From IMG/VR virus record IMGVR_UViG_3300048549_001764, positions 1-35,230 of that record: DNA of 35,230 nucleotides; one strand, given 5' to 3'. A program made the position numbers and the translations under genes. Under the pieces are notes generated by a model. It was not told the DNA's origin. It was given only the letters and a program-made list of their open reading frames with translations, and did no database searches. The first letter of the stretch is position 1; every line of letters begins with the position of its first letter. Below are positions 2,616 to 34,651 of this stretch, piece by piece. This DNA comes from a virus.

Positions 2616-5419
2616 TGTTCTGCGATTAGATTGTTATGGGCACTGATTGATGTGGTGATGGCGGTTGTTGTGTTGTTGATTCTGCGTAATCCAGAAAAGT
2701 CGCTGCGACCAGCGCTTGTACCAACATGTAGAAGTTCGGTTTTTTGATCGTATGCAAGTGCAGTCACGGCATCGCTTGTGCTATATAATGTGGCCTGCGC
2801 GCCATCACTAAATAATGGTTTTTCATCGCGATAGATCTTGGCGATTTGAGCATCGGTTGGAGCGGTGGCGGAGATTCTAAATAAAGCCAATGAAGCTTTG
2901 CAAGATCCTTCGTTTAAATAACTTATCCCCCCCAAAACTAAAGGTGTATCTTCACTAGCATCATCATCTAAATTTCCTTGCGATAAAAGAATTCCATTAA
3001 TATAAATATAACCAATGCCATCCCGCCTAACAAAAGACATAAAAACCCAAGAGCCTGTTGGAAAGTTTACGCCGCCAAGCGAGTCGGAAGTTCCATTTCT
3101 AATAGAAACATATAACAAATTACCAGTATTTATGCTCATAGAAATACCGTTATTAGCTCCAGACCTTCTGTCGAACAAGTAACTCGTTTGACCTGCCGGC
3201 TGATTTACCCACCCCATCACACAAAAATCCCCCGTACCAAAATCAAGATCCGCATTATATGGCTGAATCAAATAATTGTTCTCACTGAATCCACTGTACG
3301 CCACAAGATCCGCGCCGGGTGCAACGGGTGTTTTGTTTATTTCGCCAATAATTTGCAAACCATTGTCGTTGACGGATCGATCTTCCTCGGCGGGACGAAC
3401 GCTGACGTTGTCGAACGTTGCCGTAAAGCTTGATGTAGAAGCGGGGGTTAAACGCACAACACTAGTACTACTTTCTGCAACAAAAGTTAATGAAAATTCT
3501 GCTGGCGTTTCATGAAGGCCAATAGGATCAATAGAATTTAGCATTGTGCCAGCGAAACTTGCGTCTCTAACCTGTATATTACCATCTGATCCATCATTAA
3601 ATTGACCAGATAAACTTAATGTGTATTTTTGTCCGACTATTGTATTGATTGCTTGATATGCAGATGCACTAGATCCAGCATCAACTATTTTAAGCCTGCC
3701 ACCCTCAACAGAAAGGCTTGCTTTATTCGAAGTCCACCCACCACTTGTTTGTCCATCGGTTGCAGTTACATCTGTTGAAAAATCGCCATTTGTTATTAGT
3801 TCTGTTGTGGCGCGAACGCTGATGTTGTCCCATATTCCTGAACTATTACCACCTGAGTCCTGAAGCATTAATGCAATATAAACGCTTCCTGTAGATGATG
3901 CAGTAAACCTATTAACGTGAGTAGTTCCTGCGCTTTTAATAGTTCCATTAACTATATCTCCACCCAATGGATTAGATGAACTAACTCGAATTCTTCCGCT
4001 AAAAGAGTTAGAGTTACTGATATATTCCGCAGAAACTTCGTACTCAATACCTTCAACAACATTTACCGAAGTATATGCGGTGGGATAAGAGCTTCCCGCG
4101 CCTTGAATTTTGAGTCTTTGATTATCAACACTTAATGTGGCACTGTTTGTTCCTGACCATCCGCTAGTGTCACTACTAAAATCGCCATTCGTTACCAACT
4201 CATCACTACTCACCCCCACATTTTCCACAACACTATCACTCAATGCAGCAAGTTTGATGTCACCGGGCATCCAACCGGTGTTGTATCGCGATGTGGTATA
4301 TACAGCCACTTGATTATCACCAACTTGACCAACTCCATCGCCAGATGTGAATCTAGAAATTCCTTCGGAATCAGAGCCAACAATTATTTGATTATCTTTA
4401 CCAAAAGAAATTGCTTTATTCTGCGTAGAACTATCGACAAAATTAGCGGGGACAGTTCCGTATGTCCTAAAAAAGTCGTAAGAAAATGATGCGCTTGAAT
4501 AATCCGATGAAAAATACATTGTGGTTGTGTTTTCCCTATAATACAATAGATTGTTTTGTTCGTTAAATATAATTCCTTCAATAGCGGCAGATACTCCACT
4601 ATCCACCACCGTTCCATCATCCTTTATCACACTCACACCACCATCGGTGGCCACAGCAATTGTGGGCACCGGTAAACCAGTATCATCATCAATTGGTGCA
4701 TTTGGTAGTACGGTCATGGCGACGTCGTTTATATTAGTGCTAATTATGCCAACTGAATTAACTTGGTTCGTAAATAAAGTGTTAGCGTTTCTTTTTGATA
4801 TATTTGTAGAACTTAATCTTGCACTATTAGTAAACCACCCAATAGTATGATCATTTATCAACTTCACTTGAAAAAGTAGCATATCTGATCCGAAGTCCCC
4901 AGCAATAAATATCTGAGAATTAAGAGCGTGTATACTGGATAAAATTACATTAGAAGGTCCTATATGAGAAAAATTACTAGCAATATCAGTCCCAGATCCT
5001 CTATTAAACACCATCCACATGCCCATATCTGGATCATCGCCATCATAAATGGTAACCTTGTCTGCTTCCGCCACAATCACTGCCACTACGGGAAATTCGC
5101 GACGAGCACCCCTAGTCGCAGTATTCAACTCCTCATTATACCAACTGGTATGCTGTGTACGCTTTCTCCAAGCGCCACCATCACTGTCACGACTGGTATC
5201 ATACACAAAAACATCTACTGCGCTATCGCTAATCTCAGCAGCAATTGCGTGCAACTCAACCATATCCGCGCTAACATCATCAAGATTAACCGCATCCTGA
5301 TAAGCTAACGAACCTAAATCTTTGTTTAATGGTATTTGATTTGGGTCACCTCCAATGTCTCCTTGAACAACTGGAGATTGACCGCTGATTAATATATTAT
5401 TTACTGAAAGATCTTTCAT
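2612..5419 (-). CDS. Fibre/adhesin with propeller-like repeats, two CBM-like modules and a LamG domain
   Basis: A 935-residue virion surface protein. Residues 1-140 form an N-terminal region with repeated 'VFVYDTSRDSDGGAWRKR' and 'MWMVFNRG' type signatures that recur in marine phage fibres. Residues about 140-395 show beta-propeller-like stretches (TIAVATDGGVSVI, IIVGSDSEGISRF). Two tandem CBM-like jelly rolls follow at about 408-536 and 540-675, each starting (E)LxTNGDFSxD and ending W/FDNxSVR. Residues about 700-860 look like a LamG/concanavalin-A fold (FCVMGWVNQ, WVFMSFVRRDGIGYIYING). The last 60 residues return to propeller style (VTALAYDQKTELLHVGTSAG). There is no S74 chaperone of its own. 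It overlaps the next gene by ATGA and follows the large fibre by 12 nt. Carbohydrate binding is inferred from the modules. Confidence 0.78.
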   Translation of the reverse strand: MKDLSVNNILISGQSPVVQGDIGGDPNQIPLNKDLGSLAYQDAVNLDDVSADMVELHAIAAEISDSAVDVFVYDTSRDSDGGAWRKRTQHTSWYNEELNTATRGARREFPVVAVIVAEADKVTIYDGDDPDMGMWMVFNRGSGTDIASNFSHIGPSNVILSSIHALNSQIFIAGDFGSDMLLFQVKLINDHTIGWFTNSARLSSTNISKRNANTLFTNQVNSVGIISTNINDVAMTVLPNAPIDDDTGLPVPTIAVATDGGVSVIKDDGTVVDSGVSAAIEGIIFNEQNNLLYYRENTTTMYFSSDYSSASFSYDFFRTYGTVPANFVDSSTQNKAISFGKDNQIIVGSDSEGISRFTSGDGVGQVGDNQVAVYTTSRYNTGWMPGDIKLAALSDSVVENVGVSSDELVTNGDFSSDTSGWSGTNSATLSVDNQRLKIQGAGSSYPTAYTSVNVVEGIEYEVSAEYISNSNSFSGRIRVSSSNPLGGDIVNGTIKSAGTTHVNRFTASSTGSVYIALMLQDSGGNSSGIWDNISVRATTELITNGDFSTDVTATDGQTSGGWTSNKASLSVEGGRLKIVDAGSSASAYQAINTIVGQKYTLSLSGQFNDGSDGNIQVRDASFAGTMLNSIDPIGLHETPAEFSLTFVAESSTSVVRLTPASTSSFTATFDNVSVRPAEEDRSVNDNGLQIIGEINKTPVAPGADLVAYSGFSENNYLIQPYNADLDFGTGDFCVMGWVNQPAGQTSYLFDRRSGANNGISMSINTGNLLYVSIRNGTSDSLGGVNFPTGSWVFMSFVRRDGIGYIYINGILLSQGNLDDDASEDTPLVLGGISYLNEGSCKASLALFRISATAPTDAQIAKIYRDEKPLFSDGAQATLYSTSDAVTALAYDQKTELLHVGTSAGRSDFSGLRRINNTTTAITTSISAHNNLIAEQ

Positions 5420-5431
5420 TTTATTTTTTGT

Positions 5432-8400
5432 TTAAGATTCTAGAGCTGAAATGCGCGATTCAAGTGAGGCGTTTTGAGATTTCAAGTCTTCGATTATGGT
5501 TTGTTGTTCTTGGATTGCAGCGATTGCATAAGTAAATAAACTATTGTAATCTAATGAATAAGGCCAGACAGTATTTCCATCTTCGTCTAACTTTTCCTCT
5601 CTTACCAAGAATTTAAGCTCGGGTATATTAAGAACCTGTTGTGCAATTACACCTGCCTCAATATGATGTGGTACGAGGTCTCCATTTTCATCAATTGGAT
5701 TGCCGTTTTCATCAAATTGTAAATCATGATTAGGTTCATACAAGTTGCTTGTTTTAATATATTTTTTTGGAGTGATTTTACTAAGTGTTTCTATCGCTTC
5801 AAAAATCTCTTGCTCTTTATGCTTTAATCTATCATCAGAAGTCAAAAGAGAGGCTCCAGTGTAAGCTTTACCGTCTGCTTCAATTTTGAATTTAGTAGAA
5901 TTCACACTCCCGACATCACTATTCAAGGTAAATAAATCGTGACTTGCTGTAGTAGTCTCTCGATGCCCCAGAATGGACTGCTCTGACCCTTTAATATGTA
6001 ATTTAACAACAGGACTCGTAGTACCAATACCTAGATTTTGCCCTGTGTTGATATAGTTATCACCAGTAGTTCTTAAGCGTACTTTAGCTGTTCCTGATTG
6101 TGATAAACGGAACTCAGGGGCTGAAGCATCTATATGAAGGTTAGCCGCAGGACTCGTAGTACCAATACCTACGTTGCCGTCGGAAAGGATTGTCATCCTC
6201 GGTTCTGCTGGCTGCCCCTCTGTTGCTGCTCCTGCTGGTGCTGCTTCGGTAGAAAAAACAAGAGAACCTCCTGCACCTGTAGAAGAGTGCGATTGAGCAT
6301 GAATTGATGCAGCAACATTCGGCCCATCCCCTGATCCGTCTCTGTTGTAAAATTGAATTTCTCCAAAGTTTGTATTGAGTGCGTTATTACCTGTTCCAGT
6401 AAGCCTAATTATAGGTTTAACCGCGCTAAAGATTTCTAAATTCGCAATAGGATTCGTAGTACCAATACCTACGTTGCCGCCATCTTTATTTATTATAAGT
6501 GGCACCGCAGTATTATTATTAGTCATGGATTGTATGCCTGTCTTGCGATCAGCTGTTATTGTTGTAGAAGGATAGCTTTGTATATAAATACTAGCCTCCG
6601 CAGGGGCGTCATCTAACCCAGGCCTAAACTTAGCAAGAGTATTCCACGCGTTATCTTGCGCGGTACTATCATATATATCTAATTTTGAACCAGCATTCGT
6701 AGTACCAATACCTACGTTGCCGCTGGAGTTGATGCGCATAGCTTCAAGGTCTGTTTTAATATTATCTTTGCGAATGTTAAAAGCTAACTCTCCCTTATCC
6801 GTACCTAAGCTATAAGCTTTTATACCTCCAAAGTATTTTGTGGCGCCAGACGAATTTTTCCCTTGTAAATTAATTACTGGGCCAGTTGTAGCGCTCCAAT
6901 CAGAAGTGCTTCTTATTTTCAAGTTAGGTAAAGGTCCCTCTAAATGTAAAATGCCAGTAGGATTCGTAGTACCAATACCTACATTGCCGTCACCCGTTAC
7001 CACGAAAGGAGCGTCAGTATTTTCAGAACTTTCTACTTTTAGTCTAAATTGTCCACTAGATCCACCGCCCTTTATGAATGCACCATGTCCCGTTGATGTA
7101 GAATTGTAGGCTTTTAGTGCAAATTCAGCACTAGAGGCAGTTAAAATATGCAACTTCACATCAGGACTCGTAGTACCAATACCTACGTTGCCGCCGTCTG
7201 GTTGAAGACTTATATTGTTACTCGCAGAAGTATTTGAGCTACTTACTATTGTTTGAATTTGTAATGATCCATTAACAGATTTAAACGCAACACCTCGATT
7301 TGTGTTTAATGAGGTAGTTTGATGGAAAAACTTAAAAGACTCAGCGTTGCTTACGGAACTGTAATTACCACCAAGAAAACTAGCTACTTCAGTCAATGTA
7401 TTCGTCTCACTACTTTGTAAAACTTCCAATTTCGCACTAGGATCCGTAGTACCAATACCGACGTTGCCGTCTCGATCAATACGCATAGCTTCATCAAGCG
7501 TTTCATCTTGTTGAGATACTTCAAAAACTAGCTCTGTACTTGTAGCGTTTTCTGTGCCACCCTCTTTAACCGCTGCTATTCTTGCGCCTATTGCAGATGT
7601 TTCATTATTGCCTACAGGAACTTTAAATAATATACCAAGCCCATCTCCAGCTTCTAAGTTTTGCCCGCTTTTTTCTACCGCTTCTAAGGTCAATAAATTA
7701 TCAATTGAATTCGTATCAGAATGAGTAGCTGTTATATGTAATTTGCTAGATGGACTCGTAGTACCAATACCTACGTTGCCCGAGCTATCAATGCGCATGC
7801 GTTCTAATACGCCTGCAGTTGATGAAGGCGCAGTGTAAAAAGCTAGTGAATTTAGATTTGCGTAATGATCGACGGTTGTTTTTATTGCGGTCCTAACTCC
7901 AGTACCAGAAGATATATCCGTTGATTCAAATTCAATACCACCAAGAAAATCGGGGGTGGATCCACCGGTATTATAGCTCGATTGCCAATTTGCATTGTGA
8001 GTTAATCTTAATACTGCGCCGGACCTACCCGCTCCACTGGTGATATCATCCGCTGTTGTATCTTCAATATGCAACTTCACATTAGGATTCGTAGTACCAA
8101 TACCTACGTTGCCGCCATTAAAATAAGAATCAACGTTTGCTCCTAATTGAGTTAATGTCGCAGTATTCGCGCTGTTTCTGATTTGAATAGCGCAGGCTTC
8201 ATCTGTTGATCTAGCAATCAATCTTACTGGACCACTATTGGCTCCTGCATCAATCACTAAGTTCCTATCAGGATTCGTAGTACCAATACCTACGTTGCCG
8301 TCTCTAATAAGCATTACATGGTCGCCATCAATCTTAAACTGAATTTTTGAAGGGTTATTCGAATCAGATACATTATTTAAGTCAGCGTTTAGAATTATAT

Positions 8401-10312
8401 CTCCTCCGTTATTACTACTAATAACGGCATCAGTATTATAGGTTGTATCAGTTATGTATAACGCTGGACCAACAGACTCTAAATGAAGAAGTCCAGAAGG
8501 ATTAGTAGCACCAATACCAACATTACCCCCCTCAAAAGCAAATCCATTATTGTGTTGATAAGTTAAACTAACAGGCGAAGCACCTCCTGCATCTCCAGTG
8601 CCCCAGAGTATACCTGCATACGCACCACCTGCACTTGGATATTCGTTCGTTAACTGATTGTATCCAGTATTAGAAGCAATAACAATATTATGGTCTTCGA
8701 TCTCTACAGTTTGAGTATTAACGATTGTTTCTGTACCATTAACTGTTAAATTTCCACCAACAACAAGATTTCTTTGTAAGCTTACATCTCCATCGTTATA
8801 GTAAATACTATTCGACGCACCTGTTTCCCAGTAAACATCTTTTCCTCCGAAAACGGTATGTATTTTATAATTATTATTTGGAACTTCCTGAGCAAACGTT
8901 ACGTGGTAACCGCTTGTTGATACGCCTGAAATACTATATGGAATGATTGCTCCTTCACCGTTAATTTCTAAATCGGTAGCAATTCTAGGGGCAGTATTAT
9001 AAATGTCAAGAAATTGAATAAATTGAGAAGATTCCCCGGAAGCTATAGAATTAATCAAAGCGTTAGGCACTTCGCTACTTCCTCCTCCGCCTCCTCCGCC
9101 TGGGTTAGCGCCAGCAACCCATTTTATTCCGTTCCATTTTATGATATCATCAACGGCCGCAGGAGCAATTCCTCCAACTGCTCCATTTGAACCAAAATTA
9201 AATTCATTTTGTAAAGTAAAAGATCCGTCCACATTTACAGATCCGTTTACATCTAAAGAATAAGAAGGATTGGTCGTACCAATTCCAACATTTCCGCCAT
9301 CTTCTATAAAAATACCATTACCACCATCATCTTGCAAGCTCAAGCCGTCAGCGTTGATGGCTCTTACCGCATCAGTTTGTATATGTTTTCCGCCGACAAC
9401 CTGCAAACTTTCACTTGATTGCCAGAAGTTTGATCCTTCAACATATTCAAATGTTTTTTGAGCATTATTAGAATCATTGACTATAATTCCTCCTCGATTA
9501 CTAGTCAACGAATTTCCTTGAGAATTAATTTCTATATGATCTCCTGATATCAAAAAGTCTTCTACATTAAATGTTCCAGTTGTTCCTTTTACAAAAAATT
9601 CTCCATTTATATTTGTAGAACCATTAACATCTAAAGCGTAAGAAGGGTCTTGCAAACCAATACCAACATTTCCTTGATTGTAATAAATTTCTCCTTGAGT
9701 TGATCCGTCTGTCCATTTACCAAGAACCGATGAGTCTCCAGTTAAAACAGAATTTCCATCAACAAATAAACCTTCTGAAAAATTACCGCTTCCATCAACA
9801 TCAAAATCTGCAACAGGACTTGTTTTATTTACTCCTACTTTTCCGTTTGAGATAGTGATGCCTGTTTCTGTAGAATCTAATAAATTTAAACTACTTGAGC
9901 TTTGTAATTGTTCTCCTATAAATTTTTTACCATTTTCAAGCTGAACGTTTTGATTGAATTCCCAAGCATCATCACTTGTGCCATCGGCACCCGTAACAAA
10001 TGTTATTGTTTTATCTGTCGCTCCTTTTACTGTAATGCCTCCGCCATCAGCATGTGCATCTGAAGTGGCGCCAACACCAAGAGATATATTTTTATCATCT
10101 AGATCAATTGTTGTTTGATTGATTGTCGTAAAATCACCCTTAACAGTTAGATCGCCATCTATTTGAGTGTTGCCAGTGACATGAAAGTCGGCTTCTGGAT
10201 GAGTGGTTCCGATACCAAGCTTGCCGCCGCTAATACCTACCGTAATTTCAGTTTCTGTTTCAACAAAAGAGTTTTGTCCGCTTTTAATTAAATATACTTG
10301 ATTTTGATCCAT
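5432..10312 (-). CDS. Giant tail fibre with about 15 GNVGIGTT repeats and C-terminal S74 chaperone
   Basis: A 1626-residue fibre, the largest gene in the window. It carries about 15 versions of the G-x-V-G-I-G-T-T-x-P repeat, each followed by a KLxI-type strand and a variable 50-90 residue insert. Residues about 30-130 and again about 520-590 contain a 'GDLTVKG...INQTTIDLDDKNISLGV' type block, also found repeated in other phage fibres. A glycine run (GGGGGGGSS) near residue 410 looks like a hinge. The C-terminal 136 residues are an S74 chaperone, with TSDDRLKHKE near 1491, then AGVIAQQVL and LDYNSLFTYAIAAIQEQQ. It is probably a long trimeric fibre whose chaperone is cleaved after folding. The ATG has no Shine-Dalgarno and is preceded by a 61-nt gap that may hold a promoter. 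Confidence 0.92.
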   Translation of the reverse strand: MDQNQVYLIKSGQNSFVETETEITVGISGGKLGIGTTHPEADFHVTGNTQIDGDLTVKGDFTTINQTTIDLDDKNISLGVGATSDAHADGGGITVKGATDKTITFVTGADGTSDDAWEFNQNVQLENGKKFIGEQLQSSSSLNLLDSTETGITISNGKVGVNKTSPVADFDVDGSGNFSEGLFVDGNSVLTGDSSVLGKWTDGSTQGEIYYNQGNVGIGLQDPSYALDVNGSTNINGEFFVKGTTGTFNVEDFLISGDHIEINSQGNSLTSNRGGIIVNDSNNAQKTFEYVEGSNFWQSSESLQVVGGKHIQTDAVRAINADGLSLQDDGGNGIFIEDGGNVGIGTTNPSYSLDVNGSVNVDGSFTLQNEFNFGSNGAVGGIAPAAVDDIIKWNGIKWVAGANPGGGGGGGSSEVPNALINSIASGESSQFIQFLDIYNTAPRIATDLEINGEGAIIPYSISGVSTSGYHVTFAQEVPNNNYKIHTVFGGKDVYWETGASNSIYYNDGDVSLQRNLVVGGNLTVNGTETIVNTQTVEIEDHNIVIASNTGYNQLTNEYPSAGGAYAGILWGTGDAGGASPVSLTYQHNNGFAFEGGNVGIGATNPSGLLHLESVGPALYITDTTYNTDAVISSNNGGDIILNADLNNVSDSNNPSKIQFKIDGDHVMLIRDGNVGIGTTNPDRNLVIDAGANSGPVRLIARSTDEACAIQIRNSANTATLTQLGANVDSYFNGGNVGIGTTNPNVKLHIEDTTADDITSGAGRSGAVLRLTHNANWQSSYNTGGSTPDFLGGIEFESTDISSGTGVRTAIKTTVDHYANLNSLAFYTAPSSTAGVLERMRIDSSGNVGIGTTSPSSKLHITATHSDTNSIDNLLTLEAVEKSGQNLEAGDGLGILFKVPVGNNETSAIGARIAAVKEGGTENATSTELVFEVSQQDETLDEAMRIDRDGNVGIGTTDPSAKLEVLQSSETNTLTEVASFLGGNYSSVSNAESFKFFHQTTSLNTNRGVAFKSVNGSLQIQTIVSSSNTSASNNISLQPDGGNVGIGTTSPDVKLHILTASSAEFALKAYNSTSTGHGAFIKGGGSSGQFRLKVESSENTDAPFVVTGDGNVGIGTTNPTGILHLEGPLPNLKIRSTSDWSATTGPVINLQGKNSSGATKYFGGIKAYSLGTDKGELAFNIRKDNIKTDLEAMRINSSGNVGIGTTNAGSKLDIYDSTAQDNAWNTLAKFRPGLDDAPAEASIYIQSYPSTTITADRKTGIQSMTNNNTAVPLIINKDGGNVGIGTTNPIANLEIFSAVKPIIRLTGTGNNALNTNFGEIQFYNRDGSGDGPNVAASIHAQSHSSTGAGGSLVFSTEAAPAGAATEGQPAEPRMTILSDGNVGIGTTSPAANLHIDASAPEFRLSQSGTAKVRLRTTGDNYINTGQNLGIGTTSPVVKLHIKGSEQSILGHRETTTASHDLFTLNSDVGSVNSTKFKIEADGKAYTGASLLTSDDRLKHKEQEIFEAIETLSKITPKKYIKTSNLYEPNHDLQFDENGNPIDENGDLVPHHIEAGVIAQQVLNIPELKFLVREEKLDEDGNTVWPYSLDYNSLFTYAIAAIQEQQTIIEDLKSQNASLESRISALES
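5484..5518 (-). repeat. 35-bp repeat shared with 1141-1175
   Basis: Identical to 1141-1175; it encodes the same coiled-coil stretch near the C-terminus of the S74 chaperone of the large fibre. Confidence 0.85.
6010..10225 (-). repeat. DNA repeat array encoding GNVGIGTT motifs in the giant fibre
   Basis: About 15 copies of a 25-30 bp unit are spaced at roughly 200-330 bp, with tighter conservation on the left part (6010-8300). Exact copies of TAGTACCAATACCTACGTTG (plus strand) begin at 6158, 6458, 6700, 7171, 7759, 8092 and 8278, with near copies at 6018, 6965, 7446 and 8507. Copies beyond 9.2 kb are more diverged. The units between repeats are unlike each other in sequence. Confidence 0.85.
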
Positions 10313-10373: not shown

Positions 10374-12545
10374 TCAACTAGAAACAAAATACTTCATGAA
10401 TATAGTTTTCAATTGAATAGGATACGCCATAAAATGAACTATAAAAGTTTCATCGTTAATCATTCTTGGCTCTGTATTAAATTGATTCATTGGAAATATT
10501 TTTCTATTATGCCCAAAGCCATCGCTTTTCTTTAAAATTTCACATAAAATTTCTTGATCTCCTCCGCTAGCATATAATGAAGATTTATCTCCATTAAAAT
10601 CGCGCCATTTTTTGAGTATGTTTTTTGTATAATTGTGATTTCTAAAAATTATTACTCCGCTATTAAACATAGATCCCTTTGGTAGGTTTTTATTGTTAGT
10701 ACCTATATCTTCACAAGCGACTATTTTTTTCGTTTTCGTGCATCTTGATAATATATCTTCAAATCTTTTTTCTGGATTAAACACTAAAGTATCTGAATCC
10801 ATCCAAACAATATCATCGTGATCATCAAAATGATTCAATATAGCTTGAGCTTTTGACCAATTTGGACTTGAGTTTTGTTCGATCTTTTCGCGGTATACAT
10901 AAAAAGTATAATTATTTTTTTCGCAGTATTTTTTAATATTTTGTTCAGAATACACCGCATAGTCAGAAATTTCTGGGGTATACAAACTTACAATAGCAAT
11001 ACTTTTGCCAGGATTATATACAGAAAATTTTTCTTTCGGCGTTTCAGGCTTAGGCATTTCTTGGTGAATATATTTCAAAAAATCGTAATCTTTGAAATTA
11101 ACCCATTCATTTTTTAGTTTTGTAAGTTCGCTTTTTTTATTTTCTAAATTTTTATCTATTTTGATTTCTGGCTCAGGAGAAATTTCTAAATCATAGATCT
11201 CATAACTAAAATTATTTACTCCCGCAAAACAAAAAAGGCTATCAAGTTTTTTATTTAAAATAATTCCTGAACAATATGAATTTTTATTTGGTATATCAAT
11301 ACTTTCTGAGCTAATAATATTTATTTGATCATTGTTTACAGAAAATTTGACCAGATTATATTTATAATCCACATTATCTTTTTGATGACAAAGCATAACA
11401 TATTTATTTTCTTCAAATAATATTGGTTGACAAGAATTGCGCCATTCACATTTTTTTGTTTCATCAAGCAAATTTTTATTATTAATTCCAAAATTTCCAT
11501 CTTTTGAAAATTCGTATACCAAAGGAAACATGCTTAGTATTGTAAATGCACCCGAACTTGTTTTTAAACCCATCCAATTTTTTTGATTTTCCTGCGACAC
11601 CTCTAAATCGCATAACATTTTTAAAAATAAAATTTTACCTTGAGTGAAATTTACCTCGCAGAGACCTGGATTATAAGGAGGAAATCCTTTCCAGAATTTT
11701 TCAGTTAATGCAGTGCAGGTAGCTTTGGCGCAAATATCTCCATTTGAGTTTTTGTATTCAGAATTTTCTATCAATCTTATATCTTCAATCACAACAACCC
11801 CCGAATCTTTAGCGTCTATTCTATAGTAATCCCAATATTCAATATTATTCGCGCAAAACTTTAATTGCTTAAATTCTATTTTATTTAAATCTTCATCAAA
11901 AACTTTCATCCAATAAGAAGCTCTGGTATAAATAAGAGACTGAACCATCCCAATTTTACCGCTATTAATGTCATCTATTTGTTCTCCAAAATCTTCTCCC
12001 CTGAATACTCCATAATATTTATTATCAATATTCAAAACCGATGGATTACTTAGCTTTAGTAAACTTTCAATTTTTTTTGGTTTTTGATTTATTTTTTCAA
12101 CAATTTCATTTGTCAATTTTTTTTTAAAACTTTTCCACCATAATTTAATTTTGATATTATATTCTTCTAATGATTGATTATTTTCTAGCAGACGATTAAT
12201 TTCCTGAGAAGCTTCCTTCCAAGAGGAAACTTCTATCAGTGGATGGTCTTTGAGCATGTATTTCCAATATTTACTTTTTTCTATAATAGGAATACTTCCA
12301 ACCTCTAAGGCTTCATACAGTCTAAATGTATCAACAGAAGAGTTTCCTGCGGGACACGGAATAAAAATAGAATTAGACAATATATCTTTATATTCTTTAG
12401 TGCTCAATGAATCACTCGATTGCCAACCAGATGCAACATTACAATAATATTCTCCCTTACAAAATTTAAGGTCATTTATCATTTTTGATCTAATTCCCTG
12501 AGCATGAACTTGCCCCATAAAACTCCATGTATATTTTTTATTCAT
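10374..12545 (-). CDS. Multidomain glycosyltransferase: C-terminal half of exostosin (GT47)-like domain, propeller-like middle, GT34-like domain
   Basis: A 723-residue protein with three parts. Residues about 5-140 match the C-terminal half of bacterial exostosin-like domains: YTWSFMGQ, SGWQSSDSLSTKEY, FIPCPAGNSSVDTFRLYEAL, EVGSIPIIE. The N-terminal half of that domain is missing here and appears at the end of the gene at 13275-15173. Residues about 165-465 resemble a five-bladed propeller of the GH43/GH130 style (VVIEDIRLIE near 252-260, later CQPILFEENKYVMLCHQK); this is a low-certainty call. Residues about 514-723 resemble GT34 galactosyl/mannosyltransferases with DxD in IVWMDSDTLVF (583-585), then FNSGVIIFRN, ASGGDQEIL and IVHFMAY. 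The start overlaps the previous stop by ATGA. It is very AT-rich compared with the fibre genes. Confidence 0.75.
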   Translation of the reverse strand: MNKKYTWSFMGQVHAQGIRSKMINDLKFCKGEYYCNVASGWQSSDSLSTKEYKDILSNSIFIPCPAGNSSVDTFRLYEALEVGSIPIIEKSKYWKYMLKDHPLIEVSSWKEASQEINRLLENNQSLEEYNIKIKLWWKSFKKKLTNEIVEKINQKPKKIESLLKLSNPSVLNIDNKYYGVFRGEDFGEQIDDINSGKIGMVQSLIYTRASYWMKVFDEDLNKIEFKQLKFCANNIEYWDYYRIDAKDSGVVVIEDIRLIENSEYKNSNGDICAKATCTALTEKFWKGFPPYNPGLCEVNFTQGKILFLKMLCDLEVSQENQKNWMGLKTSSGAFTILSMFPLVYEFSKDGNFGINNKNLLDETKKCEWRNSCQPILFEENKYVMLCHQKDNVDYKYNLVKFSVNNDQINIISSESIDIPNKNSYCSGIILNKKLDSLFCFAGVNNFSYEIYDLEISPEPEIKIDKNLENKKSELTKLKNEWVNFKDYDFLKYIHQEMPKPETPKEKFSVYNPGKSIAIVSLYTPEISDYAVYSEQNIKKYCEKNNYTFYVYREKIEQNSSPNWSKAQAILNHFDDHDDIVWMDSDTLVFNPEKRFEDILSRCTKTKKIVACEDIGTNNKNLPKGSMFNSGVIIFRNHNYTKNILKKWRDFNGDKSSLYASGGDQEILCEILKKSDGFGHNRKIFPMNQFNTEPRMINDETFIVHFMAYPIQLKTIFMKYFVSS

Positions 12546-13282
12546 TTATAAGCTCGACCATCTAATGTATTTAATATACTGATGTTATTTTCTCTTATTT
12601 TAACAGTTAATAATTTTTCATTTAATATGGCTTTAGTTTTATTCTTGAACAATTGAATATCAGAATTTATATCAAACCTACCGTGCCACTGATAAGTTAA
12701 CCAGTTGTATATGTGAGTTTTTAAACCTTTGTTTAATTTATCACTACTCATAAAAAAATCCAGGCTTTTAGCTATATCCTCAACCTCAAATAAGTGACTA
12801 TTATCTATATCGACATTCTCAAACAAAGATCTTGGCGCAGCAAAACAATTAGTGCATATCCAGGACCTAACATCATAATCCATAAAATACATTTCATGTT
12901 CAACCATATCAAGTCTTCCGCAGAATATTGAATTTGAAAAACTATGATCCAAGATTTCTTCAAGCATATTTAATTCAAGCATTTTATGATCCCTGTATGA
13001 AGTCAAAGAATCATTTAAAAATAAAACTAAATCGCAATCAATATTGTTTTTAACATAATCTAAACCTTTTTGCCATCCAGAAAATTCCCAGTTAGAATTA
13101 TCTCCAGGTAAAACAAATACGTTATCAAATTTTTGTACGCCCCCGCTTTCTACTTTATTGTCTATTAAAAAATATTGCTTATCGTAAGACAATTTATTTA
13201 AATGCCCAAAAACATAAGGAAAAGAATAAGGGTATTTATCTTTATCATATTGTAAATATATTATAGCAATTTTTTTATTCAT
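12542..13282 (-). CDS. GT-A-like glycosyltransferase inserted between two halves of an exostosin-like domain
   Basis: A 246-residue protein, probably a nucleotide-sugar transferase with a GT-A fold. The visible signature is NWEFSGWQKGLDYV (residues about 64-77) followed by CDLVLFLNDS (83-92). That combination is seen in rhamnan-synthesis-type and related glycosyltransferases. A Cys/Trp-rich middle (RSWICTNCFAAPRSLF) probably builds the acceptor side. The start ATGAATAA overlaps the upstream stop by 8 nt and its own stop overlaps the next ATG by 4 nt. It lies exactly between two genes that each carry half of one exostosin domain, so it looks like a later insertion. Donor and acceptor are unknown. 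Confidence 0.62.
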   Translation of the reverse strand: MNKKIAIIYLQYDKDKYPYSFPYVFGHLNKLSYDKQYFLIDNKVESGGVQKFDNVFVLPGDNSNWEFSGWQKGLDYVKNNIDCDLVLFLNDSLTSYRDHKMLELNMLEEILDHSFSNSIFCGRLDMVEHEMYFMDYDVRSWICTNCFAAPRSLFENVDIDNSHLFEVEDIAKSLDFFMSSDKLNKGLKTHIYNWLTYQWHGRFDINSDIQLFKNKTKAILNEKLLTVKIRENNISILNTLDGRAYK

Positions 13283-15173
13283 TCTTAAAGCCTTTTTTAT
13301 AACCCAAAGGAATAAAAGTTACATTTTTTGATTCTACATCTACTCTATAATACTGTCTAAATACATGCTTAAAATATTTATAATGACTTATTTCTGCGTG
13401 ACAATGCTCATCACTAAGATGAATCAAGCAACAATTTTTGTCTTTTAATTTTTTGAAATATTTTTCGCGCTTCTCTTTTTTGCTTTCAATTTGTGATCTA
13501 TATTTTTCTGGATATAAATTTAAATTACTTGCATATATATCGCTATAAACAATGCAAGCATTTTCGTATTGCTCATTCATTTCTGTATCATATACAATTT
13601 CTGGATCATTAAATAACTCAATTAAAAAGTCTTGCTCAAATAAATTATTTTCAGTGAATACAAGTTTTTGTCTTGAGTCTTGAAAAGTATCGAGCGCGTG
13701 TCTTAGATCTGAATTCTTATCTGGCTCAGGATTATTATTTTCCTCATGAAGTTGATGCGCCATTAAAGGATTAATATGCAATATTTTTTTGTAGTCAATT
13801 TTATTGACTAATGATATCATAAAAACATCTACAGCCTTATCCATGCCAACTTGCTCGCAGTATTTACATAAAAACACAGCAGCCTCCTTGCTTATAATAT
13901 AAGAGTTTGCATTCATGTGCCAAAAATGATCGTTCTGTATAAAATAATCATTTTTCTTTACTCTTAAAAATAAATCATTATGCTTTTCTAAAACTTCGTT
14001 ATATTTAATTTTGTTCCATGGTTGACACCCTCCTAGATAGCTAATCCATGCATTTTCGTCAAACTTTTTGTGATATGCTACATTCCAAAATTCATCAAAT
14101 CCATCTTTAAAAACTGTATCATCTTCAAGTATTAAATAGTTTCTTGATTTACTATCTTCGCTTAGTTTTTTCCATAATTTATAATGACTTAAAGCGCAGC
14201 ATATTTCAGCTTTTGTTCTCTCTTTCCATGTCTTCGGAAAAAGCATTTTGACTTCATCATTCAATTCTATAGTATTACAGTCTATAGCTGAAAATCTTTC
14301 AGCAAAAAAAGGCAAATTAATTAACATATGATTTAATCTATCTACACGTCTATCTAAATTTATAAAATAACTTTTAGATATATTTTTTAATTTTACGTTC
14401 ATTGACTTGTCTGGATATATTCCTATTTGATCTGTAATTTTTCCATTGCCCCTTACGAACCTTAATTCAAAATTATGAATTTTACCAATTTTTAAATTAT
14501 CCTCGCGAATACATTTCATTAAATATTTTTCTGCATGATAAAATTCTGGAGATTTTTTTAACCGAGAATACCTACAACAATAACCCTTCATCGCCTCTTT
14601 ATTTTTTATAACAGCAAACCTATCATTAACTCCGCCAAACCATCCATAATCAATTTGCGGCAAATTATCATAATATGGAACTAATATATCATAGTCATTA
14701 CTAAATTGACTAATATCAATAGGGTGAGTATGAAACAAATCGCTTCTAGAAAAAATATATAAATCATAATTTTTATCTAACTTAGAAAACTGATTATAAA
14801 AAAACTCAAGAGAATAAATTTGCTTTAATGAATTCTCAGTACTAATCTTTGAGTCTTCGCCCCAGGCACCACCAAATTGATTAATTAATTTTTCGCTTAA
14901 ATTTTTAATTTCTGAACAATCAATACTGTCAAGCTCGTCATAAAATGTATTTTTAAAATTAAAATATTTTTTAATTGATTGGTAGTAAATATTATTTTCC
15001 TCATCCTCAGATTCTTGCTGTCGAGGATTAGAGTATTTTAAATTCTTGCTGGTTACAAGGTGAAAATCAACATCGTGCGAATCGATATACCTGTAAACAT
15101 TTTCATTAAATGAATTAAATTGTTTTTCATTGAAATTCTTTACTTGTCCAAAAAATATATATGCAATTTTCAT
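13275..15173 (-). CDS. Fusion: N-terminal GT-like domain, GT25 (LPS) glycosyltransferase, and N-terminal half of an exostosin-like domain
   Basis: A 632-residue protein from ATG 15173, whose A is also the last base of the upstream stop (TGATG). A TTG one codon earlier is possible but less likely. Residues 1-260 look like a separate GT-A domain: MKIAYIFFGQVKNF, DLYIFSRSDLFH, DYGWFGGVNDRFAVI. Residues about 268-490 are a GT25-type domain with YFINLDRRVDRL, AERFSAIDC, EICCALSHYKLWKKL and the metal motif LILEDD (about 348-353). Residues about 505-632 match the N-terminal half of exostosin-like proteins (CLIHLSDEHC, YKYFKHVFRQYYR, FIPLGYKKGF), and then the frame stops. The missing half begins two genes downstream at 12545. 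GT25 enzymes commonly add sugars to LPS or capsule. Confidence 0.78.
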   Translation of the reverse strand: MKIAYIFFGQVKNFNEKQFNSFNENVYRYIDSHDVDFHLVTSKNLKYSNPRQQESEDEENNIYYQSIKKYFNFKNTFYDELDSIDCSEIKNLSEKLINQFGGAWGEDSKISTENSLKQIYSLEFFYNQFSKLDKNYDLYIFSRSDLFHTHPIDISQFSNDYDILVPYYDNLPQIDYGWFGGVNDRFAVIKNKEAMKGYCCRYSRLKKSPEFYHAEKYLMKCIREDNLKIGKIHNFELRFVRGNGKITDQIGIYPDKSMNVKLKNISKSYFINLDRRVDRLNHMLINLPFFAERFSAIDCNTIELNDEVKMLFPKTWKERTKAEICCALSHYKLWKKLSEDSKSRNYLILEDDTVFKDGFDEFWNVAYHKKFDENAWISYLGGCQPWNKIKYNEVLEKHNDLFLRVKKNDYFIQNDHFWHMNANSYIISKEAAVFLCKYCEQVGMDKAVDVFMISLVNKIDYKKILHINPLMAHQLHEENNNPEPDKNSDLRHALDTFQDSRQKLVFTENNLFEQDFLIELFNDPEIVYDTEMNEQYENACIVYSDIYASNLNLYPEKYRSQIESKKEKREKYFKKLKDKNCCLIHLSDEHCHAEISHYKYFKHVFRQYYRVDVESKNVTFIPLGYKKGFKNE

Positions 15174-15844
15174 CAATAACCTTCTCCACTAAAGCCATTT
15201 ATATCGGAAGATATATTATTATTTTCATCAATTCTTTGACCTATATAAGAACCGTACTCAAAGGGTGAATAAGCTGGGTATTCATTTTCTTTAATTCTTT
15301 CATTAGATCCATGAGACAAAAATAAATCTTTATATCTATCATGAAAAATTTTTAAAAACATCTGATCAGTTTTAAACTTTGGGTTTTTACTGCGATACAA
15401 ATTATTTAAATCGAAAAAAGCTTCTTGGCTTAAAGAGTTTTTAACTCCCCACATTCCCGCCATTACTGGCCAGTGATGTAATTCATGATCTACCATGGAA
15501 TGCAATGGTAAATCGCAATTTTCCCACTCTAATACCGCTTGATATTCTTTATCTGAAACCCTAGAATCCGCGTCTCTACTAACAGATATTTTTACATCAG
15601 GATTAAATATAGAAGAAAATCTTTCAAAAGCAAGGCTAAAGTCGCAACGATTAACAAAAATAATTTTACTTGCAAACTTATCAAGTTCGCAGATATATTT
15701 TTGCGGTACATTATTACCAAGATAAAACCAACTCTCCCAGTCTTTGTATAGTTTTTTTCCAATTAGCTTGGCGTTTTCTATCGCTCCAACGCAGTATGCG
15801 GGATGAGATCCCCACAAAGAAAATGAAACTACCTTTTTATTCAT
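15173..15844 (-). CDS. Putative glycosyltransferase with RDADSR (DxD) motif
   Basis: A 223-residue protein. The core KISVSRDADSRVSDKE (residues about 85-100) holds an Asp-x-Asp likely to bind a metal-nucleotide sugar. It is followed by AVLEWENC and HSMVDHELHHWPVMAGMWG. The pattern (D-x-DSR, EW, H-x-M-x-DH, GGMWG-like) recurs in small proteins of capsule and LPS gene clusters. The protein starts with ATGAATAA, overlapping the stop of the upstream DUF2827-like gene by 8 nt. Its stop shares a base with the GT25 fusion start. It is probably cytoplasmic, as no signal or membrane segment is seen. The transferase role is inferred from the motif and the neighbours. Confidence 0.6.
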   Translation of the reverse strand: MNKKVVSFSLWGSHPAYCVGAIENAKLIGKKLYKDWESWFYLGNNVPQKYICELDKFASKIIFVNRCDFSLAFERFSSIFNPDVKISVSRDADSRVSDKEYQAVLEWENCDLPLHSMVDHELHHWPVMAGMWGVKNSLSQEAFFDLNNLYRSKNPKFKTDQMFLKIFHDRYKDLFLSHGSNERIKENEYPAYSPFEYGSYIGQRIDENNNISSDINGFSGEGY

Positions 15845-16931
15845 CTAACATAGAGGAATATGCATTAATATTGTCTATGTTATCGCAACTAAATTTATGT
15901 AATAGTTTTTTAACGTCTTTTTTATAATCACCTATATTATTGTAATGATTCAATAAAACATTTTTAATTTGCTTGGCGCCCATATCTACATCAAATTCTG
16001 GATAGAAATAACCATAATCCATTAATAATTTTGAATTATGTATTACAGGCATATCTAGATACATTGCTTCTAGGTGAGAATAATTCAATTCATTATATAC
16101 TTGATGACTAATCAACGTTTTCCCAAATTTACAAAAAGCCTCTAAAGAACCCCATCTATTATTAAAAAACATAAACTCTTTGCGCTTTCCTGCTTGAGTA
16201 GATTTGATAAATTCCTTGAAAAATTTTCTTTCTCGTATTTTTTCACAACAAAAAACATTAACAGACTTCAATTCGTTTCCAAAAATTTGATTAAACCTTT
16301 CTGTAATCATAACTGGTATCAAGCAGTTTTTAGAGGTTGTTCTATTCGGCTCAAATATACAAACTTGATTAACTGCATTTTTATCAAAATAAGGATTAAG
16401 GTTTTTTGATTTTAAAAATTCTATTTTTTTATCAACGAAATAGCTCCCCCATATATATGGACAGATTTTAACATTTTCATTTTGATGATAAGCTTTTATA
16501 TAATTTAAAGCAAATCCATAATGCGGCGAAGTCCATATCTGATCAAATTTAAATTTATCAACATTCACTGGAGTTTTCACGCTCTCTGGACCAGTTAAGC
16601 CATGGTGCATGTCATCAAGCAATTTGTTACCATAATGAATTAAAATAAATTTAGTTTTACTACTTCTCTTCTTTAGTGATGAATACATATTTGGCAGTAG
16701 TTCGAATCCGCAAACTAAAACAATATCAAACACCTCATTTTTGTCGCTCAATAAATCATCAAGCATCATACCTTTATGATTTAAGCTTAATGTAGTAGAA
16801 GGTTTGTTTTGGGTTATATAGTAACAGTCGTGACCTGCCTTTTTTAATATTTCATATAAAAATACTATATTCTGTTGCATTCCATTAGTCCAAAAGGCAA
16901 TAGACATATTTACTGTGATTGCAATTTTCAT
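15837..16931 (-). CDS. DUF2827-like GT-B glycosyltransferase, copy 2
   Basis: A 364-residue protein related along its length to the gene immediately upstream. Shared marks include the N-terminal NGMQQNIVFLYEILKKAG, IHYGNKLLDDM, the DQIWTSPHYGFALNY strand, CPYIWGSYFV, FEPNRTTSKNCLIPVMI, and the C-terminal LISHQVYNELNYSHLEAMYLDMPVIHNS and GYFYPEFD. These fit DUF2827, a GT-B-like family found in proteobacterial surface polysaccharide loci and in phages. The LEA-x-x-x-x-x-PVIHNS segment would be the donor-binding region. The ATG overlaps the upstream stop by ATGA. It is probably one of a duplicated pair with diverged acceptor use. Confidence 0.72.
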   Translation of the reverse strand: MKIAITVNMSIAFWTNGMQQNIVFLYEILKKAGHDCYYITQNKPSTTLSLNHKGMMLDDLLSDKNEVFDIVLVCGFELLPNMYSSLKKRSSKTKFILIHYGNKLLDDMHHGLTGPESVKTPVNVDKFKFDQIWTSPHYGFALNYIKAYHQNENVKICPYIWGSYFVDKKIEFLKSKNLNPYFDKNAVNQVCIFEPNRTTSKNCLIPVMITERFNQIFGNELKSVNVFCCEKIRERKFFKEFIKSTQAGKRKEFMFFNNRWGSLEAFCKFGKTLISHQVYNELNYSHLEAMYLDMPVIHNSKLLMDYGYFYPEFDVDMGAKQIKNVLLNHYNNIGDYKKDVKKLLHKFSCDNIDNINAYSSMLDE

Positions 16932-18007
16932 TCAAAAAGTTTTCTATATCTTTCTTGTACAGCTGGGCTTTTTGGGTTATATCTTTCTATAACAGCGCGA
17001 GCTTTTGCATTATAATCTTCAATATTTTTATCATGATAATTTAAAGCTTCATTTAGTTTGATTGCCCCTTGCTTTATGTCGTAGTCCTTATAATAATATC
17101 CTGCGTCTTTAATATGCTCAGAATTATGAACTAATGGTATATTAAAATGAAGTGCCTCAAGATATGTATAGTTTAGTGCGTTCATTAACTGATGAGATAA
17201 AACGATATTACAATCCGAGGAAAAGATCTTGGACACTTTTTCTCTAGAGGAAAAATTAATTTTTCCATTATTAGTTATATCTAATCCCCACATAAAAAAT
17301 TTAAAAAACTTTTTATCAGCTAATTTTTGAGAGCAATAAGACGTTAATTTGTTGAATGAATTTCGATTATAATTCCTGAAATATTCTTCTACGATCATAA
17401 TCGAAGGAAGACAGTGCTTCGTGAGATTTAGATTGGGCTCTAATATCGCAATGTTTTTTTCTCGATCTGGAGAATACAAGCATGTCTTTCCAGTTTTTTT
17501 CCAAATTTCTTCGTGAAGATCTACATATTTACTTGACCATATGTATGGTAATTCTAAAACTCTATCTGTATTATAATAAGTTTTGAAGTAATTAAAAGAA
17601 AATTTATAATGCGGAGATATCCAAGCCTCATCAACTTTATACTTATCAATAGGCATTGCATTATTCCAAGAACATCTTTCTATATCAGCAAGCATAGAAT
17701 TTCCATAAATAACATGAATATTTCTGCATCTCGGATTTTTTTCTTTTATAAAATCAATGTCGCCTCTTTCTAATACAAACGCAGAATTTATTATAAAATT
17801 TAAGCTTTCTGAATATTCTTTAATTTCTCTCTCCTCTATTATAAGGATGTCTGCAGGTGGATCTATACAATTATCAATAGAATGATTAATGCAAATAATA
17901 GGATTAAGCCCTATGTCTTTTATTAATTCTGCCAAAAAAACTATATTTTGCTGAAGCCCGTTGCAAAATAATCCTCTTTCAAAATTCGCGGTTAACAGTA
18001 TGTTCAT
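16928..18007 (-). CDS. DUF2827-like GT-B glycosyltransferase, copy 1
   Basis: A 359-residue paralogue of the following gene and the first sugar-transfer gene in the left arm. The N-terminus MNILLTANFERGLFCNGLQQNIVFL aligns with the same region of copy 2. So do HVIYGNSMLADIE, DEAWISPHYKFSFNYFKTYY, LPYIWSSKYVD, LEPNLNLTKHCLPSIMI and LSHQLMNALNYTYLEALHFNIPLVHNSEHIKDAGYYY. Its start overlaps the stop of the small structural gene by ATGA, so it is translationally tied to structural genes. It is AT-rich, with no membrane segments. Family assignment is good; donor and acceptor sugars are unknown. Confidence 0.72.
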   Translation of the reverse strand: MNILLTANFERGLFCNGLQQNIVFLAELIKDIGLNPIICINHSIDNCIDPPADILIIEEREIKEYSESLNFIINSAFVLERGDIDFIKEKNPRCRNIHVIYGNSMLADIERCSWNNAMPIDKYKVDEAWISPHYKFSFNYFKTYYNTDRVLELPYIWSSKYVDLHEEIWKKTGKTCLYSPDREKNIAILEPNLNLTKHCLPSIMIVEEYFRNYNRNSFNKLTSYCSQKLADKKFFKFFMWGLDITNNGKINFSSREKVSKIFSSDCNIVLSHQLMNALNYTYLEALHFNIPLVHNSEHIKDAGYYYKDYDIKQGAIKLNEALNYHDKNIEDYNAKARAVIERYNPKSPAVQERYRKLFE

Positions 18008-32666: not shown

Positions 32667-33698
32667 ATGAAAACAATAATAGTAACAGGAGTAACCGGTC
32701 AAGACGGCAGCCACATGGTCGACTATTTATTAAAGAATACGGAGTATAAAGTATACGGAACCGCAAGAAGATTAAGCGTAAAAAATCATGAAAATATACT
32801 GCATCTAGAAAACGAACCTCGATTCGAGTTAATCAATATGGATCTTAATGATGCACATAGCATTAGAGATGTAGTAATTGATATTCAGCCAGACTACTTT
32901 ATTAATTTTGCAGCGCAGTCATTTGTTGCTGGTAGCTGGGATTACCCAATTCAAACATGGGATACAGATGCAGATGCAGTACTTCATATACTAGAATCAA
33001 TCCGTAGATTTGCGCCTAACTGTAAATTTTATAACGCTGGATCTTCAGAAGAGTTTGGAGATGTAATCTGTAGCCCGCAAAATGAAGAGCATCCGCTTAG
33101 ACCTCAAAGCCCATATGGTGCTGCAAAATGTGCGGCAAGACACATCGTTAGAGTTTATAGAGAGTCCTATAATCTGTATGCAGTACAAGGCTGGCTGTTT
33201 AATCACGAAGGTTCAAGAAGAGGCCTAGATTTTGTTACAAGAAAAATTAGTCATACAGTTGCCAAAATAAAATTAGCTATAGAAGACAAAAAGCCAGTTA
33301 CAGTTCTCAAATTAGGTAACCTAGAAGCAAGACGAGACTGGAGCGACGCAGAAGATTTTATGGAAGGAGTCTGGCTTATGCTGAATCAGAAGTTTCCAAA
33401 AAACTATGTTCTTGGCAGTGGAGAAATGCATACCGTACGAGAGTTTTTAAATGAGGCTTTAAAATGCGCAAACATACAATTCAGACAAGAAGGCGTTGAA
33501 GATCAAGAAAAATATTATACCCTAGACGGCACACTCATATTTGAAGTTGATCCTAAATTTTATCGACCAGCAGAAGTTCACGAATTATGCGGAGATTGTA
33601 GTTTAGCAGAAAACGAAATGGGCTGGAAAAGAAAAACAGACTTTTATGGGCTTGTTAAAAAAATGTACCAAAATGACTACATGCAGTTAAGTAGATGA
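32667..33698 (+). CDS. gmd: GDP-mannose 4,6-dehydratase
   Basis: A 343-residue extended short-chain dehydrogenase converting GDP-D-mannose to GDP-4-keto-6-deoxymannose, the first step to GDP-L-fucose. The NADP-binding motif is GVTGQDGSHM (8-17). The active-site set is SSEEFG (126-131) with Ser and Glu, plus YGAAK (150-154) with Tyr and Lys. NHEGSRRGLDFVTRKI (179-194) matches the family NHESPRRGxxFVTRKI substrate and tetramer loop. KLGNLEARRDWSDAEDFMEGVW (key NL-x-ARRDW) follows. The length is slightly short of the usual 350-375. Cytoplasmic. It overlaps fcl by ATGA. No manA, manB or manC is present, so GDP-mannose must come from the host. Confidence 0.93.
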   Translation: MKTIIVTGVTGQDGSHMVDYLLKNTEYKVYGTARRLSVKNHENILHLENEPRFELINMDLNDAHSIRDVVIDIQPDYFINFAAQSFVAGSWDYPIQTWDTDADAVLHILESIRRFAPNCKFYNAGSSEEFGDVICSPQNEEHPLRPQSPYGAAKCAARHIVRVYRESYNLYAVQGWLFNHEGSRRGLDFVTRKISHTVAKIKLAIEDKKPVTVLKLGNLEARRDWSDAEDFMEGVWLMLNQKFPKNYVLGSGEMHTVREFLNEALKCANIQFRQEGVEDQEKYYTLDGTLIFEVDPKFYRPAEVHELCGDCSLAENEMGWKRKTDFYGLVKKMYQNDYMQLSR

Positions 33699-34651
33699 AA
33701 GATAAAAAAATCTTTATAGCTGGGCACAATGGAATGGTTGGCTCGGCGATACTAGATAATTTAAAGTCTAACGGTTACGCAAATCTTGTTGTTCGCACAA
33801 GAAATGAACTTGATCTAAAACTTCAAGCTGATGTAAATCGCTTTTTTGATAAAGAGCGCCCAGATGTGGTTATTATTTGTGCCGCCAAAGTCGGCGGCAT
33901 TCTTGCAAACAATACTCTTCGCGCAGATTTTATTTACGATAATATACAAATTGCTTCTAATTTAATACATGCTTCTCACATTTATAACACACAAAAGCTG
34001 ATTAACCTAGGTAGTTCATGCATATATCCAAAGCATGCAGATATACCAATTGCAGAAGAAAGTCTATTGACTGGTGTGCTAGAAAAAACAAACGAACCAT
34101 ATGCAATTGCAAAAATAGCCGCGATTAAAATGTGTGAAAGTTATTACCAGCAATACGATAGAAATTTTTATTCGATTATGCCGTGCAACATGTATGGGCC
34201 TCGCGACAACTTTGATCTAAAAAGTTCGCATGTTTTACCAGCTCTCATTAGAAAAGTACATGAAGCTAAAGAAAATGGCGCGAAAACGATTGAAGTGTGG
34301 GGAACAGGAAAGCCATTACGCGAGTTTTTATATGTCGATGATTTGGCAGAAATGTCGATACGTTGTTTAGAATGCGTCGATGCGATCGACGTATATGAAC
34401 AAGGAATTTCGCACCTCAATTGCGGATCTGAAGATGAAGTAACTATTCTTGAATTGACCAACATTATACAAGATGTCGTTGGCTACACTGGCGAGATTGT
34501 ATTCGATAGCTCGAAGCCTGATGGAACATATCGCAAAAAAATGAACAACGGTCGAATGATCAATCTAGGATGCACACCAAAACACACGCTAAAACAAGGA
34601 CTACAAAAAACATATGCTTGGTATCTAGAAAATAAAGAAAAATTTGTGTAA
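33695..34651 (+). CDS. fcl: GDP-L-fucose synthase (epimerase/reductase)
   Basis: A 318-residue enzyme epimerising and reducing GDP-4-keto-6-deoxymannose to GDP-L-fucose with NADPH. The nucleotide motif is GHNGMVGSA (10-18), then AAKVGGILANN (63-73). Catalytic residues fall at the positions I know from the E. coli enzyme: Ser107 and Cys109 in LGSSCIYP, Tyr136 and Lys140 in EPYAIAK, and His179 in DLKSSHVLPALIRK. GKPLREFLYVDDLAE is also typical. Length is normal. It overlaps gmd by ATGA, the conserved gmd-fcl pairing. All expected catalytic residues are present, so it should be active. Confidence 0.94.
   Translation: MKDKKIFIAGHNGMVGSAILDNLKSNGYANLVVRTRNELDLKLQADVNRFFDKERPDVVIICAAKVGGILANNTLRADFIYDNIQIASNLIHASHIYNTQKLINLGSSCIYPKHADIPIAEESLLTGVLEKTNEPYAIAKIAAIKMCESYYQQYDRNFYSIMPCNMYGPRDNFDLKSSHVLPALIRKVHEAKENGAKTIEVWGTGKPLREFLYVDDLAEMSIRCLECVDAIDVYEQGISHLNCGSEDEVTILELTNIIQDVVGYTGEIVFDSSKPDGTYRKKMNNGRMINLGCTPKHTLKQGLQKTYAWYLENKEKFV

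Follow-up and report, generated by a model that had tools for sequence, protein, structure and literature searches.

Alg13/Alg14 and the bacterial EpsE/EpsF enzymes are split glycosyltransferases of the GT-B fold, in which the N-lobe and C-lobe of one enzyme lie on two genes, the active site is shared between the lobes, the split is old, and fused relatives exist (PMC8993221). A minus-strand locus in IMG/VR virus record IMGVR_UViG_3300048549_001764 (positions 1 to 35,230; this whole stretch of 35,230 nucleotides is hereafter the window) appears to resemble these systems in all four respects. Alg13/Alg14 and EpsE/EpsF differ from it in belonging to a MurG/GT28-like family and in having lobes that are nearly whole proteins, whereas the phage lobes are terminal domains of multidomain glycosyltransferases, with foreign modules in the gap between them. 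In the window, gene 1 ends with an N-lobe (the N-half), gene 2 begins with a C-lobe (the C-half), and an inserted gene of 246 amino acids (aa) lies between them (Table 1). We consider it about 80% probable that genes 1 and 2 encode the two lobes of one RXYLT1/A075L-like, exostosin/GT47-like GT-B enzyme that assembles in trans. Homology, the predicted division of the active site between the lobes, and selection together lend this idea strong support, and from them we infer the complex.

Two further systems frame the comparison. A075L of chlorovirus PBCV-1, a GT114 beta-xylosyltransferase formerly placed under GT47 (PMC11571054), is the closest solved relative of the C-half; at about 280 aa, it has the same Asn, Arg, and Glu that bind uridine diphosphate (UDP), and its N-lobe Ser-Asp motif is likely equivalent to one in gene 1. 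It differs in being a single chain from a eukaryotic virus; its donor is UDP-xylose, and it catalyses beta-xylosyl transfer. Heterodimeric GT-B enzymes have also been engineered: lobes cut in the inter-lobe linker and co-expressed in bacteria self-assembled, and lobes of different parents were combined, although some pairings failed (PMC10937113). Those differ from the phage case as laboratory constructs made from plant enzymes.

Homology ties both halves to one chain. Natural single-chain relatives were found in GTDB genomes and virus contigs with the motif pattern GYxxGF, a gap, then Y/F-x-W-x-F-x-G, which returned SAR11 genomes L042 and L045 (289 aa) and virus contig L055 (291 aa); most other matches of the GTDB motif pattern were due to chance. 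Two more, L059 (285 aa) and L060 (292 aa), came from a search with the Pfam family PF24785 in the order to which L045 belongs. All five proteins (285–292 aa) carry GYKxGF/GL, a linker of about 12 residues, and then Y/F-x-W-x-F. An earlier note on this DNA, made from its letters alone, had described such a motif order (GY-x-x-GF, then a Y-x-WSF-type motif) for single chains and suggested looking for homologues with the halves fused, and these five, including a viral one, bear it out. A GTDB scan using the C-half alignment gave no matches, and a motif scan of virus contigs for further N-halves returned known records plus two chance matches (L067, L074) only.

A hidden Markov model (HMM) of the five single chains (287 positions) matches gene 1 residues 562–631 at positions 59–132 (E 7e-9) and gene 2 residues 2–153 at positions 138–286 (E 1e-34), so that the N-half and C-half of the window tile the model with a gap of 5 positions. 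The same tiling is seen in all nine gene pairs examined, where N-half matches range from E 7e-9 (the window) to 1.5e-5 with HMMER filters off and a nominal 10,000 sequences. This tiling upholds the earlier note's central observation, that gene 1 ends with the N-lobe and gene 2 begins with the C-lobe of one exostosin/GT47-like domain; the three minus-strand open reading frames (ORFs) that it listed were likewise confirmed.

Pfam profiles place the C-half in the same way. Gene 2 residues 2–154 match RXYLT1_C (PF24785; E 1.3e-14) from position 17 of the 187-position profile onwards, and the score of 54.5 bits exceeds the cut-off of 27 bits, as do those of the relatives L008, L009, L011, and L032. 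The match to Exostosin_GT47 (PF03016) starts at position 171 of 293 (E 2e-6); at 27.8 bits, it falls below the cut-off of 33.4 bits, as do L008 (30.9) and L032 (30.2), with L009 (35.3) and L011 (37.9) above. Because both matches start inside their profiles, the C-half begins mid-domain, as is expected for a domain without its first part. PF24785 and PF03016 describe one chain, and the phage N-half (gene 1 residues 562–631) matches neither of them, nor any other Pfam family. No MurG/GT28-like or Alg14 Pfam family was found for gene 1 or gene 2 at E values up to 1. Among 50,697 cultured-phage records, matches to gene 1 are confined to its GT25 domain and those to gene 2 to its GT34 part, and the 246-aa insert has no match.

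We modelled a single-chain viral relative with AlphaFold from 24 aligned rows as a stand-in for both halves (predicted local distance difference test score [pLDDT] 79, predicted template modelling score [pTM] 0.81). The model is a complete GT-B fold of two Rossmann lobes over its whole length, with Z scores of 16–17 to SenB, Gtf3, HepE, and others, and its Foldseek matches include A075L and EXT1/EXT2. The phage break corresponds to the inter-lobe coil, which separates the last N-lobe strand (positions 110–112) from the first C-lobe strand (133–139). In A075L (PMC11571054), the N-lobe holds the acceptor and the catalytic base Asp73, and the C-lobe holds the UDP-sugar. Compared with A075L by sequence, the C-half alone aligns (profile E 3e-6); in a profile alignment to 8q8i/8avq, whose chain numbering is offset by 2 from that of PMC11571054, Asn202, Arg208, and Glu211 of A075L are matched by the gene 2 residues Asn68, Arg75, and Glu78. 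The L-S-D-E-H motif of gene 1 is, by motif and spacing only, the likely counterpart of A075L Ser72-Asp73; 5 single-chain and 10 split members all share its Asp and its Glu. Residues invariant among the single chains are kept at 16 of the 23 covered columns in the split C-half and at 6 of 15 in the split N-half, the N-half set including the Asp-Glu, Arg, and Gly-Lys of its conserved motifs. With the likely base on gene 1 and the donor-binding residues on gene 2, neither polypeptide alone would carry the whole active site, which appears to be divided between the two.

The split is not peculiar to the window. IMG/VR scans gave 11 further records, for a total of 12 records of uncultivated viruses with the split form, which reduce to about ten lineages when near-duplicates (L002/L005, L006/L007) are merged. 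All 12 encode a single N-half and a single complete C-half, in every case on separate ORFs. Six of them have abutting halves with a stop-start overlap of 4 or 8 nucleotides, and these are the insert-free split homologues that the earlier note had proposed to look for. It had also deduced what the site would look like without the insert, with the halves abutting, out of frame, and overlapping by ATGAATAA; such sites exist in the four records with an 8-nucleotide overlap, which reads ATGAATAA in L002 and L005 and GTGAATAA in L006 and L007. The other two abutting records, L008 and L010, overlap by ATGA.

The remaining six records hold one of three unrelated glycosyltransferase modules between the halves. 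The 246-aa type is a separate gene in the window and in L011 (44% identical, same junction), and L011 has a further module fused before its C-half. In L009 and L032, a GT2 module is fused in frame before the C-half, and in L017 and L018 a separate 263-aa GT34-like gene lies between the halves. The earlier note regarded the middle gene of the window as an unrelated transferase. A moderate-confidence model (pLDDT 65, pTM 0.71) agrees in giving it a GT-A-like fold, with a best fold-search match to mannosylglycerate synthase (Z 12.7, root-mean-square deviation 3.5 over 179 residues); no Pfam or NCBIfam family backs the label, and the predicted fold is the sole basis for it. One old split is the simplest reading of these records, because a single branch of the C-lobe tree (83/98) has every split member on the same side, and the inserts would then be later and recurrent.

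Both halves are under purifying selection, with ratios of nonsynonymous to synonymous substitution (dN/dS) of 0.07–0.30 for the N-half and 0.09–0.23 for the C-half. In aligned comparisons, L008 and L010 share 95% aa identity in the N-half and 83% in the C-half, and the order is reversed between L008 and L029 (70% and 92%); synonymous differences shift as the aa identities do. Pairings therefore appear not to be fixed, with recombination near the junction and halves of different history re-paired. This reading relies on the aligned comparison: a Fisher test for L008–L010 (p 0.005) is the sole sound row, those involving L009 or L011 (C-half out of frame) and L008–L029 (partly misaligned, with an insertion-deletion) having been set aside.

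Of the competing explanations, the one that survives best, though we judge it unlikely, is that the halves no longer cooperate, the C-half now working independently, as a donor-binding or other domain, and the N-half persisting as a relic or spacer. Two observations speak for this reading. C-halves accept various N-terminal fusions (GT2 in L009 and L032, the ~310-aa module in L011). In addition, the distance matrices of the two halves correlate at Mantel r 0.74, a value no higher than those with the neighbouring GT34 domain (0.82, 0.88), so co-evolution is no specific proof of contact. The latter result also counts against an assembled enzyme, as do three other points: a closely adjusted interface would tolerate re-pairing across lineages poorly, the N-half alignment is weak beyond its two motifs, and the catalytic Asp is assigned from motif and spacing. 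A relic would decay, however, and all 12 records retain the N-half, at the low dN/dS given above and with the Asp-Glu, Arg, and Gly-Lys that are invariant in single chains.

A programmed +1 frameshift at the overlap, which would yield a fused protein and make the split merely apparent, is very improbable. The downstream frame is indeed +1 of the upstream frame in six of six abutting records, but the overlap varies (ATGAATAA, GTGAATAA, or ATGA after TCA or TTA) with no slippery site kept, and in the six insert-bearing records a frameshift cannot join the halves. We give even less credence to the idea, raised in the earlier note, that arrival of the inserted gene broke up a domain still intact in the lineage of the window. 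In its favour, the insert is flanked by a 12-nucleotide direct repeat, ATGAATAAAAAA, and the earlier note was right that both borders carry the same sequence: the window contains exactly two copies, where 0.08 would be expected from shuffles, although the repeat is less surprising in that each copy also starts an MNKK ORF. The relatives nevertheless contradict the idea: those without an insert are already divided at this position, in some cases with the ATGAATAA overlap, others hold different inserts there, and the C-lobe tree fits one older split. The frame break and the insertion are two separate events, as the earlier note had allowed. Finally, a frame broken by sequencing or assembly error can practically be dismissed, for although every record is a metagenome assembly, twelve records from different projects share this break together with the start codon that follows from it, and six of them hold a whole module between the halves.

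Returning to an enzyme assembled from two lobes, we propose the following scheme. The N-lobe (acceptor side, with the likely catalytic Asp) is the last domain of a GT25-containing polypeptide, and another polypeptide, which has a GT34-like domain at its end, starts with the C-lobe (nucleotide-sugar side). A single origin of the split is probable, at the linker, through a frame break or through an insertion gained and then lost. The stop-start overlaps joining gene 1, the insert, and gene 2 suggest coupled translation, which overlapping genes would provide for both polypeptides. These may then assemble non-covalently, the lobes forming one active site as in Alg14/Alg13, and, judging from the domain order, lobe assembly would also tie two multi-enzyme proteins together. 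After the split, the junction may have become a harmless site for gaining modules, because the enzyme no longer needs a continuous frame there.

The junction is one of several shuffling points, since slots within gene 1 and gene 2 also vary. GT32-type and pyruvyltransferase modules occur between the GT25 domain and the N-half (L002, L006, L008–L011, L032), and GT8, a GXM-like domain, or a ~310-aa module between the C-half and the GT34 domain (window, L008, L017). Kin of the ~310-aa module precede the N-half in L009 and the C-half in L011 (tblastn, 25–30% identity, E 1e-20 to 1e-22). The split junction is the only shuffling point located inside an enzyme. It is possible, though we hold this tentatively, that the split GT-B is a docking joint clamping two multi-enzyme glycosyltransferase polypeptides into a complex that works like an assembly line, and that, the joint being non-covalent, the gap between the genes is a standing port for swapping modules and re-pairing acceptor and donor lobes.

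Table 1. Features of the split glycosyltransferase locus and adjoining genes (window positions unless residues are given).
Feature	Position	Strand	Details
Gene 1	13275..15173	minus	632 aa from ATG; GT25-containing, N-lobe of split GT-B at C-terminus
Gene 1 N-terminal module	residues 1-255		module map
Gene 1 GT25 domain	residues 267-452		PF01755, E 3e-19
N-half (acceptor lobe) of split GT-B	13278..13658	minus	gene 1 residues 506-632; single-chain HMM and alignment with 10 other phages
Asp588 codon, motif LSDEH	13410..13412	minus	likely catalytic base, putative counterpart of A075L Asp73
8-nucleotide stop-start overlap ATGAATAA, gene 1/inserted gene	13275..13282	minus	sequence
ATGAATAAAAAA, upstream copy of 12-nucleotide direct repeat flanking insert	13271..13282	minus	
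Inserted gene	12542..13282	minus	246 aa; GT-A-like fold by model and fold search
4-nucleotide stop-start overlap ATGA, inserted gene/gene 2	12542..12545	minus	sequence
ATGAATAAAAAA, downstream copy of 12-nucleotide direct repeat	12534..12545	minus	
Gene 2	10374..12545	minus	723 aa; C-lobe, ~310-aa module, GT34-like domain
C-half (nucleotide-sugar lobe) of split GT-B	12084..12545	minus	gene 2 residues 1-154; single-chain HMM
Arg75-Leu-Tyr-Glu78	12312..12323	minus	counterpart of A075L UDP-binding Arg208, Glu211; invariant
~310-aa module of gene 2	11136..12080	minus	family unassigned; between C-half and GT34-like domain
GT34-like domain of gene 2	10491..10952	minus	residues 532-685; PF05637, 1.9e-9
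223-aa gene upstream of gene 1	15173..15844	minus	family unassigned
Two tandem DUF2827 genes	15837..18007	minus	PF10933, 4.8e-58 and 2.9e-63

The 223-aa gene upstream of gene 1 has no Pfam or PHROG match and is missing from the corresponding place in the relatives examined. The two DUF2827 genes beyond it are only about 30% alike, and such a pair lies upstream of gene 1 in every sufficiently long relative. In L008, gene 2 (5378-8101) includes one GT8 domain and another that belongs to the IRX15/GXM family, best known from plant xylan synthesis. In L028 (5725-6059), tandem short peptide copies (LSLKTGNFSILC...) occur in overlapping frames downstream of the glycosyltransferase genes. The phage record of L017 has, elsewhere, an unsplit 267-aa exostosin/A075L-like gene (L078 653-1456; record 3300046169_000120, G307:C1:27600-30200) that is immediately followed by a nucleotide-sugar epimerase-like gene; this phage therefore has both an unbroken single-chain member and the split one. 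In the SAR11 genomes of L056, L057, and L060, the single-chain relative directly follows a gene that reads, by eye, like an RNA polymerase sigma-32 factor.

The operon of the window continues directly into tail fibre genes, and nucleotide-sugar epimerase genes are present in the phage. One tail fibre protein of 1626 aa, with many GNVGIGTT-type repeats, is encoded after the glycosyltransferase genes (5432-10312), where the content of guanine plus cytosine rises from about 29% to 39%; two tandem genes at 32667-34651 both match the nucleotide-sugar epimerase family phrog_540. According to excerpts of a report on pelagimyophages (PMC7029224), these AT-rich aquatic phages similarly have glycosyltransferase genes beside tail fibre genes, within a tail-fibre variable region, and the enzymes are proposed to alter the host surface; those excerpts report no split enzyme for them. 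Given the adjoining tail fibre genes, the epimerase genes, and this precedent, the likely product is a glycan carried by the virion or by the host surface.

Most known cases of naturally split GT-B enzymes belong to the clade of Alg13/Alg14 and EpsE/EpsF. We found no description of an exostosin-like split enzyme in phages in the literature searched, which is not proof of absence. The phage case appears to be a separate splitting event within a different GT-B family, with the lobes built into multidomain glycosyltransferases and with repeated entry of foreign modules at the junction. If the halves assemble, they would offer a natural test system for GT-B lobe exchange, until now a matter of engineering, and would illustrate concretely how phages vary their glycan-building machinery beside tail fibre genes. 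A docking joint, if true, would amount to a natural 'mix and match' system that diversifies the phage-made glycan.

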